The notes under the pieces were generated by a model that was given only the letters and a program-made list of their open reading frames with translations, was not told the origin of the DNA and made no database searches. Made by a program: the position numbers and the translations under genes. DNA of 50,229 bases from a virus. Location of the stretch: positions 1 to 50,229 of the IMG/VR virus record IMGVR_UViG_3300045051_000794. One strand, 5' to 3'. This document shows, piece by piece, positions 3,354 to 31,255 of the stretch (its first letter is position 1; each line of letters opens with the position of its first letter).

Positions 3354-6205
3354 TCGCCCCGGCCGCCAATCGCGTGGCTCCATTTCTTGTGGATCAGTAC
3401 GGCGATCCCCTCCGATCTTCGCGCCCCTCTCCAAAGACTCGTCCCGAAGTGGTGCAGGTCCGCCGCACTCGATCGCCCGCCGAAGCCAGGGCCGCGGAAG
3501 TCCACGCGAGCTACGACGCGGCGCGTGACACCGACGAGTTCAAGAACTACTGGGCCAACGCCGACCACCTCGACGCCGATTCGGCCAACAGCAAGCCAGT
3601 TCGCAAGAAGCTGGTATCGCGATCGCGATACGAAGCCGGGTCGAATGGCTTCGTCGATGGCATGTACCAGACCCATGCGAATTACTTGGTTCGCAAGGGT
3701 CCGAAGTTGCGAATGAAGACGATCAGCCGCGAATTCAATACGGCGGTCGAGGCTGAGTTCGCCAAATGGTCGAAGGCCACGCTGTGGCGTCGCAAGCTGT
3801 GGTGCATGGCGCACGCCAAGATCCAGGACGGCGAAGGATTCGGCTTGGTCCAGACCAACCCGAAACTCCGCCACCCGGTCAAGTTGGACGTTTGCTTGAT
3901 CGAGACGGAGCAGTGTTCGACGCCGCAACTGCCGTGGGGCGTCAAGGGCTACATCGACGGGGTCAAGTTCGACGAGTGGGGAAACCCCGAGCACTACGAC
4001 ATCCTGCCGTACCACCCCGGCGGACAGTGGCGGACGATGCAGTACAACCAGCCGGATCCCGTGCCGGCCAAGTTCGTCTTGCACTGGTTCACGCTGCGGC
4101 GTCCTCAACAGCACCGCGGAGTCCCCGAGCTGCGGTCGACGCTTAACGTTGGCGCGGCTTCTCGGCGATGGCGCGAAGCTACGATCGCGGCCGCCGAGAC
4201 CGCGGCTGACTTGTCGATTCTGCTGCGGACGCAGCTCAACCCCAATAGCGACTCCGACCTCGACCCGCTGCGGCCGTTTACTTCGCTCCCGATTGAGAAG
4301 CGCACCATGATGGCGCTCGCTCAGGGTTGGGAACCGTTCCAGATGCGGGCGGAGCACCCTGGCACCGACTATCGCGGGTTCCTGCGAAGCCAGATCAGCG
4401 AGCAATCGCGCCCGAAGTCGATGCCTCACAATCTCGCGGCGGCCGACTCCTCGGACCACAGCTACGCGTCGGGGCGCCTCGACTTCCAGCCCTATTACAT
4501 GGGGCTCGACAACGAGCGCGAAGACGCGAATGAGTTGGTACTCGAGCCGCTCTTCCGGTTGTGGTGGGCGGAGGCCAAGTGGCGTTTCGGGTGGATTGGC
4601 GACGACGAGGAACCGCCCCCGCACGCCTGGGACTGGGGGCCTCACCCGCCGATCGATCAGCTCACCGACGTCCAGGCCAAGGATTCTCGGCTGAAAGACG
4701 GTCTGACGTCGCTGTCCGCTCTCTACGCCGAAGACGGCGAAGACTTCGAGGACGCCCTCGAGGTGATGGCCAAGGACTACGGCAAGACCACCGACGAGAT
4801 GCGTCAGATTTTGTGCGACGCAATCTTCAACGTGCAGGGCCAGCAGGCGACGATGCTCCAGGCGCGCGGAGGCGCCTCGCCTACGCCGAGTGGCGGATTC
4901 CCCGACGGTTTTGGCGATCGACTGGCCGAGCGGCTTGCCGACAATCAAGCGAACTCGGAGGATTCCGCCGCGGGCGCTGATCCTGGGGCCTTGGCCGCCG
5001 ATTACGACCCCCGACAGCCTCGCGACGACGGCGGCCGGTGGACCGAGTCGGGCCGCGGTGGCGGTTCGCGGGGGAAGGCCAATCGCAATCGCAGTGGAGC
5101 ATCGGCGAGATACAACCGAAGTGCTCGCGTTGCGACTCGGTCGACGACTTCGCTTGCGGGCATCGGCAAGATGTCGGCCGATCTTCATACCGTTCGCTCG
5201 CTGAACCCGACTCAATTGCGATCCCCCTTGATCGTCAAGCGAGTCGGGGGGCGGGATTACGTGGTCGACGGACGGCGCCGCGCGGCGGGGATCATGCGTT
5301 GGTCGCTCGAGAACCGCGTCAATCCTTCGAAGATCGACATTCCCGTCCTGGTTGTTCACGACGACCGACTTGCGGCGGATGTCTCGAGCCGCTCGAAGGC
5401 CGTTCGAACGGCGGCGCTGCAAGAGGTCTACAAGGCGGCGAACGAGCCCGAGCCGCGTCAATCGATCGGCCGTCGGGCCGTCGAAAAGCTGAAAAAGATT
5501 GCCGGTAAGGCTGCCCGCGGAACTGCGAGCCTGGCGAAAGATGTGTACCGACAGGCAATCCAAACGACCGTTGAAGACCTCGCAACAGGTCGTTCGAGCG
5601 GGTTTTCCAAGACTTTCGCCAAAGCGGCGACCAATGCCTCGCTTGACCAAGCCAGGGCCCGCGTTGCCAAGGCCGTCGGCGTAAACCTCCAGAAGGTCGA
5701 ACGGGCCGTCCAGCGAGTCGATCGAGTCGATAGCCAACAGGCTCGCGCGATCGAACGCGAGCGGTCGCGGGACTTCAATCAGCAGGCAAGGGAGAAGGCG
5801 ATTGCCGAGCGCCGAGCGGCGGCCGAAGCAGACCGGGCGCAACGCAAAGCCGACTCGGAAAGGCGGCAAGCTGATCGCAAGGCAGCTTCCGAGCAGGCCA
5901 AAGCTGAACGCGAGGCCTCGAGGCAATCGAAGAAGTCTGAGCGGCTGAAGACGATCGCCGAACGCAATGCGGCGAAGAAAGCCGCGAGCGAAGCTCGAAA
6001 GCAAGCGATTGCCGATCGAAAGGCGGCGGCAGAGGCCGAAAAGAGCGCTCGCCGCACTGAGCGACTACAAGGCCGGCTCGTTCGCGCGAAGTTGCTGCAA
6101 GACAAACTCGACAAAAAACGCGAACGGGCCGAACGCATTCGTCGCGAGCGAGAAGAGCGCGCGGCCAAGAAGGCAACGAAGGGGGTGGGCGATGGCAAAG
6201 CGTAA
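3350..6205 (+). CDS. Lambda-type portal protein with ParB-like and coiled-coil C-terminal extension
   Basis: Forms the dodecameric portal vertex through which DNA enters and leaves the capsid. Residues 1-500 match the lambda-family portal pattern (for example RSRYEAGSNGF, then VCLIETEQC and FTLRRPQQHRGVP). The protein is 951 aa, nearly twice the usual portal. Residues about 550-575 hold a QPRDDGGRW motif followed by Gly/Arg-rich sequence. About residues 606-650 resemble a ParB-type nuclease fold with YVVDGRRRAAG. Residues about 800-945 are a very charged Ala/Arg/Glu/Lys coiled coil. Start ATG 3350 overlaps the preceding stop. The extension may be internal scaffold or DNA-binding sequence; that is inference. 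Confidence 0.85.
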   Translation: MIAPAANRVAPFLVDQYGDPLRSSRPSPKTRPEVVQVRRTRSPAEARAAEVHASYDAARDTDEFKNYWANADHLDADSANSKPVRKKLVSRSRYEAGSNGFVDGMYQTHANYLVRKGPKLRMKTISREFNTAVEAEFAKWSKATLWRRKLWCMAHAKIQDGEGFGLVQTNPKLRHPVKLDVCLIETEQCSTPQLPWGVKGYIDGVKFDEWGNPEHYDILPYHPGGQWRTMQYNQPDPVPAKFVLHWFTLRRPQQHRGVPELRSTLNVGAASRRWREATIAAAETAADLSILLRTQLNPNSDSDLDPLRPFTSLPIEKRTMMALAQGWEPFQMRAEHPGTDYRGFLRSQISEQSRPKSMPHNLAAADSSDHSYASGRLDFQPYYMGLDNEREDANELVLEPLFRLWWAEAKWRFGWIGDDEEPPPHAWDWGPHPPIDQLTDVQAKDSRLKDGLTSLSALYAEDGEDFEDALEVMAKDYGKTTDEMRQILCDAIFNVQGQQATMLQARGGASPTPSGGFPDGFGDRLAERLADNQANSEDSAAGADPGALAADYDPRQPRDDGGRWTESGRGGGSRGKANRNRSGASARYNRSARVATRSTTSLAGIGKMSADLHTVRSLNPTQLRSPLIVKRVGGRDYVVDGRRRAAGIMRWSLENRVNPSKIDIPVLVVHDDRLAADVSSRSKAVRTAALQEVYKAANEPEPRQSIGRRAVEKLKKIAGKAARGTASLAKDVYRQAIQTTVEDLATGRSSGFSKTFAKAATNASLDQARARVAKAVGVNLQKVERAVQRVDRVDSQQARAIERERSRDFNQQAREKAIAERRAAAEADRAQRKADSERRQADRKAASEQAKAEREASRQSKKSERLKTIAERNAAKKAASEARKQAIADRKAAAEAEKSARRTERLQGRLVRAKLLQDKLDKKRERAERIRREREERAAKKATKGVGDGKA

Positions 6206-24423: not shown

Positions 24424-25332
24424 CTAGGGCTCAGAGTCTAAAATCGCGTCCCAATAGTCGTGTTCGTGCACGATAAGAATTGGCGTCCCCTTCCTGCGAA
24501 GCGTCACCGCCTGTTCGACCTTTCTTCCGTAGCAGCAATAGGTCCAGCATGGATTTCCGTCGGCACCGATCACCAGATAGTTGACCGCTTTCGTGACAGT
24601 CTTCGAAAAACGTCCGCCTCGCGACGCTACTTGCGCGGCAAGTTGATCTCGTGAAACGCGTTCCGATTTCCCGGTAAAACAAAACGTACGATCCTCGAAG
24701 ACAATTTCGGGGCAGACGGCGCAGACTCCGCCAACCAGTGAATCTTCTTGATCATCTGATGGCAGTTCAATCGTTTTGCTATTGCCAGGGAGATCTGTGA
24801 AATCCTGAAAGAATGCCATCATTTGCGCATGTTCTTTCTGGTCAATCTTCCCGTCCCGAAGAACTGTCATGAGCAGTGACTCAAATTCGTCGTACGGCCA
24901 AAGTGTACGTAAGTGCTGGTGCTGATCGATCCAAGCTTGAAGCCCGACGAGCTCCTTTTCATTCAATTCGCCATCTGCCGTGATACCGCCGCAGATCGCT
25001 TGAAGTCGCTGCATGTCAGACGTCACATCATCGAAGAATCTGTTTGGGCTCGTGTATTTTCCACAGAGCCACAGAATATCTGCCTTTTCTTCTTCGTCGA
25101 TTGCTCCGTCCTGAATAATGTCCAATACCTTGTCAACTACCTCGTTGAAAGGATGGACGTTAGCGTACACGCGGTACTCGTCCATCCATTGGCTAATTGC
25201 GCCTACCTCAATGTCGTTCACCTTGCCATCCATCGCAACACCTCGAAGCAAGCCTTCGAGCGTATGAATAGCACGGTCAAGTCGAGATCGACTTGTGAAT
25301 TTCAGGTATTTCTTATTGTCTGAGTTTAGCAT
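24424..25332 (-). CDS. TerB-like/BRCT domain protein
   Basis: A 302 aa protein. The first 180 residues contain two TerB-like helical repeats, each with a DGxxxxxE element (MDGKVNDIEVG, RDGKIDQKEHA). Residues about 210-300 form a BRCT domain (FCFTGKSERVSRDQLAAQV, then GGRFSKTVTKAVNYLVIG) like that of NAD-dependent DNA ligase. BRCT domains bind DNA ends or nicks and phosphopeptides. No ligase catalytic domain is present. Base composition is less GC-rich than the structural genes, suggesting an accessory acquisition. Confidence 0.75.
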   Translation of the reverse strand: MLNSDNKKYLKFTSRSRLDRAIHTLEGLLRGVAMDGKVNDIEVGAISQWMDEYRVYANVHPFNEVVDKVLDIIQDGAIDEEEKADILWLCGKYTSPNRFFDDVTSDMQRLQAICGGITADGELNEKELVGLQAWIDQHQHLRTLWPYDEFESLLMTVLRDGKIDQKEHAQMMAFFQDFTDLPGNSKTIELPSDDQEDSLVGGVCAVCPEIVFEDRTFCFTGKSERVSRDQLAAQVASRGGRFSKTVTKAVNYLVIGADGNPCWTYCCYGRKVEQAVTLRRKGTPILIVHEHDYWDAILDSEP

Positions 25333-28013: not shown

Positions 28014-28498
28014 GACGCGACGATCGATGGTGGATTCTTGGCGGCATCATGGCTGGCTTGGTGCTGTGCCACATGGTATGGACGCGAGCCCTGCGCGGCG
28101 ACGAACTGGACTCGCTCAGCGATCGCCAGGTACAGCTTCACACCGAGGCCCAGCGGCACCGCGTGGCCCACGGCCGCGAGCCGCAAAAACTCGACGCGGA
28201 GCTGTGCGGCGTGGCCCAGCGATGGGCGGAGACGATGGCCTCGCGCAACTCGATGTATCACGGTGGCGGCGAGCAGATCATCGCCTATGGCACTCGCTCG
28301 GCTCCCGCCACAGTGGCCATGTGGATCGGCTCCGCGCCACACAACGCGTGGCTCTTGTCGAGCTGCACGCAAGCGGGCTGGGGAGCGGCGCAGTCGCGCT
28401 CGGGCACGTGGTTTTGGGCGGGGGCGTTTCGCGGTGGAAGCCCGGCCAGTGGTGGCGGGACGTATACAGCAAGGCGGTTCAGGTTTTTTCGAAGGTAG
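28010..28498 (+). CDS. CAP/SCP-superfamily membrane-anchored protein
   Basis: A 162 aa protein. An N-terminal membrane segment (residues about 8-25) is followed by a CAP domain: HTEAQRHRVAHGREP, then LCGVAQRWAETMASRNSMYHGGG, then a FWAGAF strand. CAP-family His and Glu positions appear present (H in MYHGGG, E in GGGEQ). Such extracellular proteins are frequent in planctomycetes. In a phage it may be a lysogenic-conversion or envelope factor. Confidence 0.75.
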   Translation: MRRDDRWWILGGIMAGLVLCHMVWTRALRGDELDSLSDRQVQLHTEAQRHRVAHGREPQKLDAELCGVAQRWAETMASRNSMYHGGGEQIIAYGTRSAPATVAMWIGSAPHNAWLLSSCTQAGWGAAQSRSGTWFWAGAFRGGSPASGGGTYTARRFRFFRR

Positions 28499-28691
28499 CT
28501 ACACGTTCGCCGTCCAGCTTGAGGCGTCCCGTCGTGCCGTACGGCAGCGTCTGGAGCCGATCGCTGGAGTCTGGATCGTCAGGGCCGAGCGTTCCGAGGG
28601 GCGCGCGGTACAGCGATCTGGTAGGCACCAAAACGGCTCCACATACCCGGCTCTGTGTGGGGCACCGGTTCACTTATCACCAAGGAATCCC

Positions 28692-29573
28692 ATGGCCACC
28701 TATAAAAAAGCGTCCTACGAAGAGCGAGCGCTACTCGATCATGCGTTCGAGAAGTACCACGATCGCCTAAAGGTATACGGCGTGACAGTGGACCTGATCG
28801 TTGCCTTCGCTCCGCGTACGGAGGAGGGCAAGATCCGAGGCGTGGCGATTATGGCCGGGGGCTATCCGGCCCTTGCCCAAGTCAAGATCACTCCGCTCAA
28901 GCAACGGGTGCAGGGAATCGCCGACGCGACGATCACGTTGGATGGCGATCGGTGGGGCGACCACGAGCGTGAGCAGCAGATCGCCATTCTCGACCACGAA
29001 CTGTGCCACCTCGAGACGATCGAGGACGAGGAGGCGGTCGCGCTGGTCGAAGCGATCAAGTCGGATGACGAGAAATCTCCGCCGCCGGACCGGACCAAAG
29101 AGGCACCGCGGCCGATCAAGCTCGACGACATCGGGCGCCCGAAGCTTCGAATTCGCAAGCACGATCATCAGTTCGGCTGGTTCGACGACGTCGTCCGAAG
29201 ACACGGTCGCAGCTCGATCGAATGGAGCCAGTTCGACGCGTTCAAATCGAACGCGCTCAAGCAGACCTGGTTGCCGGGCCTCGGCCCAGACGACGCGATC
29301 GACCAGGACGTTGCTGCCGCGGCGAGCGATCCCAACTCGCATGGAGTTGACCCGGAGCCGGAGGAGGCGATCGAAGATTTCGCAAAGCGGATGGAAGCGA
29401 GCGGACTGAGAGAAACGAAACGCGACATCCGCCTTCATCGATCCGCCGTAGACCGTGAGCAGCTCGCCGAGCTGCAGAACAAATCGAAGAAGGCACTCGA
29501 CCGAATGGGCGTCGTCGCCAAGGCGCCGGGCGTGACCAAAACGCGAAGGAGGAAGGCGGCGGCGACGGGATAA
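28692..29573 (+). CDS. Putative phage metallopeptidase (PhageMetallopep-like)
   Basis: A 293 aa protein. The zinc motif HELCHLE lies near residues 102-108, preceded by KITPLKQRVQGIADATI, the pattern I associate with the phage metallopeptidase family. The C-terminal half is a charged region, ending in a Lys/Arg-rich RRRKAAATG tail. Substrate unknown. It lies 193 bp after the CAP gene with no strong terminator between. Confidence 0.7.
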   Translation: MATYKKASYEERALLDHAFEKYHDRLKVYGVTVDLIVAFAPRTEEGKIRGVAIMAGGYPALAQVKITPLKQRVQGIADATITLDGDRWGDHEREQQIAILDHELCHLETIEDEEAVALVEAIKSDDEKSPPPDRTKEAPRPIKLDDIGRPKLRIRKHDHQFGWFDDVVRRHGRSSIEWSQFDAFKSNALKQTWLPGLGPDDAIDQDVAAAASDPNSHGVDPEPEEAIEDFAKRMEASGLRETKRDIRLHRSAVDREQLAELQNKSKKALDRMGVVAKAPGVTKTRRRKAAATG

Positions 29574-29588
29574 GGATTGACGCGAATC

Positions 29589-29666
29589 GGCGTGGCGAGG
29601 CCCGGCGTGGCGAGGCATGGAACGGCCTGGCGTGGCGAGGCACGGCAAGGCAAGGGAACTGAGTTC
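29589..29666 (+). repeat. GGCNN pentamer array 1 with palindrome
   Basis: 14 consecutive 5-nt units starting GGC or GG (GGCGT GGCGA GGCCC...), in unbroken register, end in GGCAAGGCAAGGGAACTGAGTTC. The last 11 nt are the palindrome GAACT-G-AGTTC. The array precedes gene 29683 by 16 nt. The same structure recurs at 30334 and 30941. Confidence 0.85.
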
Positions 29667-29682
29667 AAACAGAAAGAAACCG

Positions 29683-30321
29683 ATGCAAGTTGAATTTGTA
29701 CTGACTGGAACGCGTCCGCTCCTAATGCACCGCGACAGCGTTGACGAGGCGGATCGGCTGATGAATTGGCAGCGTGATCCGAATAACAAGGGCAAGTCCG
29801 TACCTGGTGATGATCGCTCGCCAGCGTGGACCTGGCAGACCTATCTGTATCACGACGGAAAGAACGTCGCGATGGAATGGATGAATATCATGGGCGCAAT
29901 CCGTGCCGCAGCAACGCAAATGATCTGGAGGAAGCAGAAGACATTTAAGGAAGTTAGCCAGTCTGGAATGACAATCGTCGAAGATTTTTGCGACTTCTTT
30001 GTTCAAGGAAAGCAAATCTCGATGGACTCGATCGTGCCGCTCAGGGAACTGGACTTCTCCGAGCAATCCAACGCGGTTCGCGATCTCGGCTTTCAACTAT
30101 TTGTCAAGCGCGCTCGAGTTGGAACGTCGAAACGTGTCCGCGTCCGCCCGCGATTTGATTCGTGGAAGATTCGCGGCACGCTTGACGTATCTGCAGAAGA
30201 ACTCACGAAGCCAGTCTTAGCGCAAATGCTGACAATCGCTGGAAAAAAGGGGATAGGTGATTGGCGACCGAGTTCGCCGTCGCCAGGTGCGTTTGGGCAG
30301 TTCGACGCGAAGATCGTGTAG
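29683..30321 (+). CDS. Conserved phage protein with RAMP-like sequence features
   Basis: A 212 aa protein. An N-terminal strand FVLTGTRPLLMHRDS and C-terminal elements RVRVRPRFDSW and GKKGIGDWRPSSPSP are features of a phage family I recall as common and of unknown function. The opening strand and Gly-rich end recall RAMP/Cas7-type folds, which bind RNA; that is inference. It lies as a single-gene cassette between two pentamer arrays, with lower GC than the flanking operons. Confidence 0.55.
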   Translation: MQVEFVLTGTRPLLMHRDSVDEADRLMNWQRDPNNKGKSVPGDDRSPAWTWQTYLYHDGKNVAMEWMNIMGAIRAAATQMIWRKQKTFKEVSQSGMTIVEDFCDFFVQGKQISMDSIVPLRELDFSEQSNAVRDLGFQLFVKRARVGTSKRVRVRPRFDSWKIRGTLDVSAEELTKPVLAQMLTIAGKKGIGDWRPSSPSPGAFGQFDAKIV

Positions 30322-30333
30322 CAGACCTTACAC

Positions 30334-30406
30334 GGAAAGGCTTGGCGCGGCCAGGCAAGGCCAGGCAAGGCTTGGCGCGGCATGGCAAGGCAAGGGAACT
30401 GAGTTC
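30334..30406 (+). repeat. GGCNN pentamer array 2 with palindrome
   Basis: 13 units in register (GGAAA GGCTT GGCGC GGCCA GGCAA...) end in GGCAAGGCAAGGGAACTGAGTTC. The palindrome occupies 30396-30406. The array begins 13 bp after the stop of the gene at 29683 and ends 16 bp before the next start, ATG 30423. Confidence 0.85.
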
Positions 30407-30422
30407 AACGGGAGCATGAAAC

Positions 30423-30935
30423 ATGGGGCGAATTAGCACAAAGCAGCCGGATCAAGTGACGCGAGAAGTGTTGTCCCAGTGGGAGTCACGCTGGCCAGCA
30501 CTGAAGGCGTTGAATGACGCGACACTCTGCATGAAACGCGGCGAAGCGATCGAAGTTGAGAAGTGTCATCGCATTTGCGGCGACAAGGAGCAATTCAAGA
30601 AGGTCGCGTCGAAATGGAAGCAGGGCATTCTCGGAGTGCTGGGCATCATGGTGCGGTTTCGGCCAAAGCCGCTTCCGGCCTATGAGTTTGTCAGCGTGGA
30701 CTATCACCTGGGCAAGCATCACGACCGCACGTTAGCGCGGGCCGAGAAGATGCACCGATCCGAGTCGCTGAAGCTCGCCATGATGCACGACGACGACCTG
30801 GCGACGGACCACCAAAAGCGTCTGAGACTGTTCCAGCGCAATCAGCACTCCGACGCGGCGGGAAAGATCAACTCGCTGCGGGATTACAACCGGATCGCAA
30901 TCGAGCGGCCCGAGACGATGCCAAAAATTGGATGA
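30423..30935 (+). CDS. Hypothetical cassette protein
   Basis: A 170 aa basic protein lying alone between pentamer arrays 2 and 3. It opens with an acidic-basic helix (TREVLSQWESRWPALKALND) and has many His/Lys/Arg residues in the middle (YHLGKHHDRTLARAEKMHR). No family recognised. Shared arrays suggest regulation with the gene at 29683 or exchange as a unit. Confidence 0.5.
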   Translation: MGRISTKQPDQVTREVLSQWESRWPALKALNDATLCMKRGEAIEVEKCHRICGDKEQFKKVASKWKQGILGVLGIMVRFRPKPLPAYEFVSVDYHLGKHHDRTLARAEKMHRSESLKLAMMHDDDLATDHQKRLRLFQRNQHSDAAGKINSLRDYNRIAIERPETMPKIG

Positions 30936-30940
30936 GGAGT

Positions 30941-31018
30941 GGCTAGGCTCGGCTCGGCTCGGCCTGGCAAGGCAAGGCTCGGCCCGGCACGGCACGGCAT
31001 GGCAAGGGAACTGAGTTC
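30941..31018 (+). repeat. GGCNN pentamer array 3 with palindrome
   Basis: 14 units in register (GGCTA GGCTC GGCTC GGCTC...) end in GGCATGGCAAGGGAACTGAGTTC, palindrome 31008-31018. Unlike the others it is not followed by a gene at once but by about 350 bp of structured noncoding sequence. Confidence 0.85.
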
Positions 31019-31182: not shown

Positions 31183-31252
31183 GGTTGGGTCGTGAGAGGT
31201 TCACACGTCGGGCTTCGGCCTGACGGCGAAGGTTCGAGTCCTTCCCCGGCCA
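31183..31252 (+). ncRNA. tRNA-like cloverleaf without standard anticodon arm
   Basis: Acceptor GGTTGGG pairs with CCCGGCC (31245-31251; two G-U pairs), with discriminator A31252. A first arm is GTGA-GAGGT-TCAC. A second arm is an 8-bp stem CGTCGGGC/GCCTGACG capped by UUCG (31206-31225). The T arm is GAAGG-TTCGAGT-CCTTC (31228-31244). No 7-nt anticodon loop with U33 is possible, so it cannot act as an ordinary tRNA. Alternatives are a degenerate class II tRNA whose UUCG hairpin is the variable arm, or a YrlA-like tRNA mimic. Confidence 0.55.
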
Positions 31253-31255
31253 CTT

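Follow-up and report, generated by a model that had tools for sequence, protein, structure and literature searches.

Arrays and genes of the locus

The DNA analysed here, called the window below, is the whole of a 50,229-base viral contig (IMG/VR record IMGVR_UViG_3300045051_000794) with a GC content of 0.615. The record carries terminase, portal, capsid-protease, tape measure and tyrosine integrase genes, and its source is therefore, judged by gene content, an uncultured temperate tailed phage. On one strand of the window, three arrays of GGCNN pentanucleotides alternate with two small genes (Table 1).

Table 1. Features of the candidate VIPR locus, with variable dinucleotides in order
Feature	Position	Strand	Remarks	Variable dinucleotides
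Candidate vrRNA1 repeat tract	29589..29655	+	13 GGNNN units (12 GGC, one GGA = GGAAC), then GG	GT GA CC GT GA AT AC CT GT GA AC AA AA
Candidate vrRNA1 3' tail	29656..29666	+	GAACTGAGTTC; predicted hairpin GAAC-UGA-GUUC	
Predicted vipr gene	29683..30321	+	212 aa; phrog_4652; predicted RAMP fold; between arrays 1 and 2	
Candidate vrRNA2 repeat tract	30334..30395	+	GGAAA + 11 GGC units (12 pentamers), then GG	(AA) TT GC CA AA CA AA TT GC AT AA AA
Candidate vrRNA2 3' tail	30396..30406	+	GAACTGAGTTC; predicted hairpin GAAC-UGA-GUUC	
Putative VIPR accessory gene (vap position)	30423..30935	+	170 aa; basis is position only	
Candidate vrRNA3 repeat tract	30936..31007	+	edge unit GGAGT (30936), 13 GGC units from 30941, then GG	TA TC TC TC CT AA AA TC CC AC AC AT AA
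Candidate vrRNA3 3' tail	31008..31018	+	GAACTGAGTTC, same 11 nt; 42-nt segment alone folds into a competing structure	

Each array holds 11-13 GGC units plus edge units in an unbroken 5-nt register, the NN series being different in each, and all three end in GGCAAGG followed by GAACTGAGTTC, a palindrome whose only exact copies in the window are these array ends. The best 13-unit register of the window contains 13 GGC units, compared with a maximum of 6 in 100 whole-window dinucleotide shuffles; a reversed-pattern control found none, and the minus strand of the window has no comparable GGC run. The arrays are intergenic, starting 15, 12 and 0 nt past stop codons (arrays 1, 2 and 3, respectively), and the start codon of each gene lies 16 nt past the palindrome before it. 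No gene follows array 3 within approximately 300 nt. An earlier sequence-only reading had described the arrays, their common end and the 16-nt spacing, and had concluded that the structure is selected while the unit content varies; all of this holds, since register, GGC and end sequence are kept and NN is free. The arrays have 13, 12 and 13 pentamers, so its count of 13-14 units is slightly high for array 2.

Within the locus, no promoter- or terminator-like sites were seen, the promoter consensus used being of the sigma-70 type only. Neither cas nor other defence families were found at the genes scanned. When the arrays and tails were compared with the curated Rfam models no match was obtained, the only Rfam match being a tRNA at 31183-31252. 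This tRNA gene (31183-31253; Rfam 38 bits) lies 165 nt past array 3 in a stretch that is otherwise gene-free, and ARAGORN reports its anticodon as incomplete ('tc'). Elsewhere in the window, a gene on the minus strand (24424-25332) encodes a 302-aa protein that has a BRCT-like domain and belongs to phrog_3989 (E 1e-80), a well-conserved phage family.

The Vipr homologue and its linkage to arrays

The 212-aa gene that separates array 1 from array 2 belongs to phrog_4652 (E 1.5e-19). A profile built from 63 relatives matched PDB 36pp, 'SUSP1 Vipr protein', with an E-value of 3.6e-38, and the single sequence matched the same entry with an E-value of 8e-9. By tblastn, the protein aligned over 97% of its length to positions 28474-29061 of SUSP1 (E 2e-5, 24% identity), a gene that adjoins a second small gene (28031-28471) and has GGY arrays, mostly GGT, in the gaps on both sides, in agreement with the preprint on VIPR. 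The AlphaFold2 model of the protein has a pLDDT of 88.5, and a Foldseek search with it retrieved type VII and type III (Csm) CRISPR RAMP subunits (E ~1e-4, probability 1.00). By homology and predicted structure, the gene thus encodes a Vipr homologue, a small relative of the SUSP1 protein with a RAMP fold.

VIPR (Viral Interference Programmable Repeat) has been described very recently as a CRISPR-like, phage-encoded system made up of a RAMP protein, Vipr (~20 kD), one or more vap genes, and vrRNAs (PMC13142463, bioRxiv 2026). According to the preprint, each vrRNA has 9-16 tandem repeats of YNNGG (GGY/NN), in which NN is hypervariable, followed by a structured 3' tail that does not vary; in the SUSP1 clade this tail is a conserved structure that includes a pseudoknot. 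The vrRNAs are located in intergenic regions around the phage RAMP gene (PMC13142463). The homologous Vipr protein loads SUSP1-type arrays as guides, and the NN of these arrays specify double-stranded DNA with one base skipped per unit (xNN), so that a phage would find the DNA of its rivals by means of a small protein and repeat-coded RNAs; the system is also proposed as an ancestor of CRISPR (PMC13142463). The sequence-only reading knew no established name for the arrays; the name to use is vrRNAs of VIPR. Our searches of the literature on GGCNN, GGCAAGGC or pentanucleotide repeats returned unrelated papers only.

Loci were collected both by array and by protein. Among the matches listed from a 7-unit GGCNN scan of IMG/VR viral contigs, 256 of 269 arrays had heterogeneous NN, compared with 14 of 137 in a 9-unit scan of cellular genomes, where nearly all the rest were homogeneous microsatellites; as the two scans differ in unit number, the comparison is approximate. 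BLAST of the array against isolated phages gave no match. Across 112 loci with 381 heterogeneous arrays, 85 of which have at least two arrays, none carries arrays on both strands among the matches listed. The commonest departure from GGC is GGT (178 of ~400 among the matches listed), and since off-consensus units are mostly of this kind, the repeat motif is GGY. In the variable dinucleotide, again among the matches listed, the second base is uniform (25% each) and the first is purine-rich. When loci were chosen by array, Vipr was present in 83 of 113 heterogeneous viral loci (median distance 406 nt) and in none of seven homogeneous ones, and array and Vipr shared a strand in 326 of 336 cases, all among the matches listed. 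In addition, phrog_4652 was found in 30 of 41 whole records and in none of 14 control genomes.

A single-sequence scan found no close relatives of either the 212-aa or the 170-aa protein; an alignment-based scan yielded 80 loci with Vipr relatives. Of these loci, chosen by Vipr sequence alone, 79 contain heterogeneous GGY/NN arrays, and all 382 of these arrays share the strand of Vipr, none being on the opposite one. Strand was scored relative to Vipr, crude ORF calls being uninformative since the arrays are open frames themselves. Redundancy does not explain the linkage, because clustering of the 80 loci leaves 55 groups at 90% identity and 42 at 70%. Many arrays in these relatives sit between other arrays or after vipr, away from gene starts.

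Tail hairpins and the second gene

The 11-nt tail is identical in all three arrays of the window, and would form a hairpin with a 4-bp stem and a 3-nt loop. Thermodynamic support is weak: hairpins 1 and 2 are predicted at -2 to -4 kcal/mol, no better than shuffles, and fold 3 is a competing structure. As the predicted stability is low, the protein probably contributes to it. Among relatives, a perfect 4-bp stem at offset 0 is present in 51 of 75 distinct G-starting tails, compared with a mean of 4.8 when stem arms are swapped (maximum 11 in 1000). Stems of at least 4 bp occur at half of all array ends, at 11% of upstream flanks and in 5% of shuffles. There are 24 different stems in the relatives, and at each of positions 2-4 all four Watson-Crick pairs occur; a single locus (L097) has GGCU/AGCC, GGCC/GGCC and GUUC/GAAC. 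Because pairing is kept while the sequence is free, beside strand-locked tracts, the palindrome points to an RNA tail hairpin of the guide. In relatives the arrays are present beside Vipr. A search of viral contigs for the exact tail GGCNNGGCNNGGGAACTNAGTTC gave no match, which the turnover of the tail sequence among relatives explains.

Array ends in the Vipr clade of the window (L277-L356) are of two kinds. In 38 loci the hairpin comes right behind the final GG; in 27 loci there is a GGAACNNGG-like junction without a hairpin, which lies between closely packed arrays and may correspond to the 'staggered' arrays of the preprint. In 15 array-rich loci, neither hammerhead ribozymes nor other Rfam RNAs were found at gathering score. 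A T-arm-like hairpin with a 5-bp stem and a TTCGANN loop was observed 20-40 nt past arrays in three Vipr-bearing loci (L114, 1399-1800; L029, minus strand near 4313-4600; L012, 3711-3830), with each of the three arrays of L114 having one. Among the 814 arrays as a whole, T-arms are equally frequent downstream and upstream (8 and 8); the vrRNAs of L114, L029 and L012 possibly have tRNA-like tails, only the repetition within L114 and L029 being suggestive.

The 170-aa gene is a putative accessory gene by its position, a vap-like gene being present downstream of vipr in 60 of the 80 related loci. The protein has no database match. Against the vap-like family, hhalign gave E-values of 0.15 and 0.0046 at low probability and HMMER gave no hit; part of the protein can be aligned to the family (G..I..E...F..V...W) with weak statistics. 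Its single-sequence structure prediction is unusable (pLDDT 42).

A probable VIPR locus and alternative readings

We read the stretch as a VIPR locus of a temperate tailed phage, arranged as vrRNA1, vipr, vrRNA2, putative vap and vrRNA3 in a one-strand operon, whose guides would act against competing DNA, with a probability of about 0.93. Its three arrays are most likely three guide RNAs, having repeats, variable NN, a common structured 3' tail and intergenic positions flanking vipr as published for vrRNAs. By analogy with the SUSP1 and P. fulva systems, each array would be transcribed and the transcript cut or trimmed to a guide RNA; the layout suggests release from a single operon transcript. 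The three RNAs would end at or near the GAACUGAGUUC hairpin, so that each guide would close with the short hairpin GAAC-UGA-GUUC. One GGC triplet would be bound per Vipr subunit, and the variable NN, with one target base skipped (xNN), would steer the filament of Vipr and RNA to a double-stranded DNA target, which most likely belongs to a competing phage, prophage or satellite and whose transcription would be blocked. RNA production, loading, the skip rule and repression of the DNA target are all modelled here on the published SUSP1 and P. fulva systems.

It is improbable that the arrays serve instead as an RNA leader or attenuator, in which 5'-UTR elements regulate the two genes behind them by binding either Vipr or a ring-like protein of the TRAP type, which recognises NAGNN at 5-nt intervals. 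TRAP-binding leaders consist of (G/U)AGNN repeats with a fixed triplet in a period of five and two free bases. The window follows the same period-5 plan, 16 nt separate arrays 1 and 2 from the start codons behind them, no separate promoter was seen, and autoregulation by Vipr could coexist with a guide function. However, the triplet of the window differs, the neighbouring gene encodes a RAMP homologue, no gene closely follows array 3, and in relatives arrays also lie outside leaders. NN is saturated and different in every array, as guide content would be, and a homologous protein is reported to load SUSP1-type arrays as guides (PMC13142463).

The sequence-only reading had offered an RNA leader as one of three options, and of this option the RNA part was right. 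The two others, recombination linkers and protein-binding tracts with an operator, are both very unlikely in this family. As linkers or hot spots, the arrays would allow exchange of single-gene cassettes by the annealing protein of the phage, and they do bound single genes and share an end sequence. However, such arrays are not scattered around arbitrary cassettes: they follow one gene family in 79 of 80 loci under a strand lock of 382 to 0. Moreover, their tails vary in sequence with pairing kept, GGC with random NN is needless for a recombination tract, and a guide-RNA function has been published for the homologous system (PMC13142463). As for the operator, GAACTGAGTTC, read as DNA, forms a perfect inverted repeat, but its loop bases are not symmetric, and one regulator would need one sequence, whereas more than 20 different stems occupy the same place in relatives (three within L097 alone), self-complementarity alone being kept. 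Microsatellite slippage or low-complexity noise can practically be dismissed: GC-rich bacterial genomes often contain homogeneous GGCNN repeats, but slippage predicts homogeneous units without gene linkage, and both predictions were tested and neither was seen, nor would the strand lock follow from it.

For the VIPR reading, possible targets of the guides were searched for. The target pattern of vrRNA1 derived from the published xNN rule is GTNGANCCNGTNGANATNACNCTNGTNGANACNAA. Arrays 1 and 3 have no exact match of 9-10 dinucleotides in viral contigs under this rule, and guides 1 and 3 have no match with up to three mismatches in 50 related records. Seven exact hits of array 2 were rejected as chance-like, being in AT-rich phages (GC 0.29-0.39) and in three protein families with non-matching flanking dinucleotides. 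Within the window, the best xNN self-matches are 17/24, 16/22 and 16/24 letters, none of them strong, which is consistent with a lack of self-targeting. Skip rules of 0-3 nt were not separated in ~1.9 Mb of loci, a test without power. As the searches yielded no convincing target for any of the three guides, the 1-nt-skip rule at this locus is carried over from the published work (PMC13142463). Between two other loci, a minus-strand array of L079 (~2379) matches the VIPR-bearing contig L055 at 948 in 19 of 20 letters over 10 units with a 1-nt skip; over 12 units the match is 21 of 24, near chance level.

Compared with SUSP1 VIPR (Vipr, Vap1 and vrRNAs; PDB 36pp; PMC13142463), the window likewise has a phage-encoded small RAMP, same-strand GGY/NN tracts in intergenic gaps, a structured 3' tail and a small gene next to vipr. 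In contrast to SUSP1, its units are nearly pure GGC rather than mostly GGT, its predicted tail is a single short hairpin rather than the pseudoknot-containing structure reported for the SUSP1 clade (PMC13142463), vipr and the second gene are separated by an array, and the second gene has no detectable similarity to known families. Closer counterparts are IMG/VR loci of the same clade (L277, L278, L097, L069 and L066), with Vipr 41-54% identical and arrays before and/or after vipr. Three of them (L277, L278 and L097) resemble the window in having a hairpin right after the last GG, with different stem sequences. In L097 and L066 a 154-161-aa gene follows vipr, and the second gene of the window is not detectably in that family. 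The RAMP backbones of Class 1 CRISPR systems (Csm3/Cas7, type VII Cas7) share the fold and, according to the preprint, the guide-RNA filament logic (PMC13142463). Unlike CRISPR, with its identical repeats of tens of nt, unique spacers and cas genes, the window has 5-nt units with two free bases, and no CRISPR array was seen at the locus.

VIPR as a kind is thus already known, though very recently, and the phage of the window adds one more member. It is conceivable, if rather doubtful, that the locus represents a compact layout absent from the main text of the preprint, with minimal-hairpin guides cut from an operon transcript (one per gap, without promoters of their own), an accessory protein that may be new, and a first guide whose place in the vipr leader possibly couples guide processing to Vipr synthesis. 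If the VIPR claim is true, phages possess an RNA-guided, non-contiguous DNA code. The metagenomic data support its predictions at the sequence level, namely near-perfect linkage of heterogeneous arrays to Vipr, a complete strand lock in one clade, tolerance of GGY, and tails that keep pairing rather than sequence. They also extend VIPR to a clade of uncultured phages that comprises at least 80 loci and shows two distinct tail architectures. As a rule, such loci can be sought by their heterogeneous GGYNN runs, homogeneous GGCNN microsatellites being a different thing. Among 120 genome loci, Vipr was found only in three (L145, L154 and L223), all with heterogeneous arrays. Their contigs had been binned to bacterial genomes (a Fibrobacteres MAG, a Patescibacteria MAG and one more) and probably derive from phages or prophages; for CPR phages, the one from Patescibacteria would be of interest.
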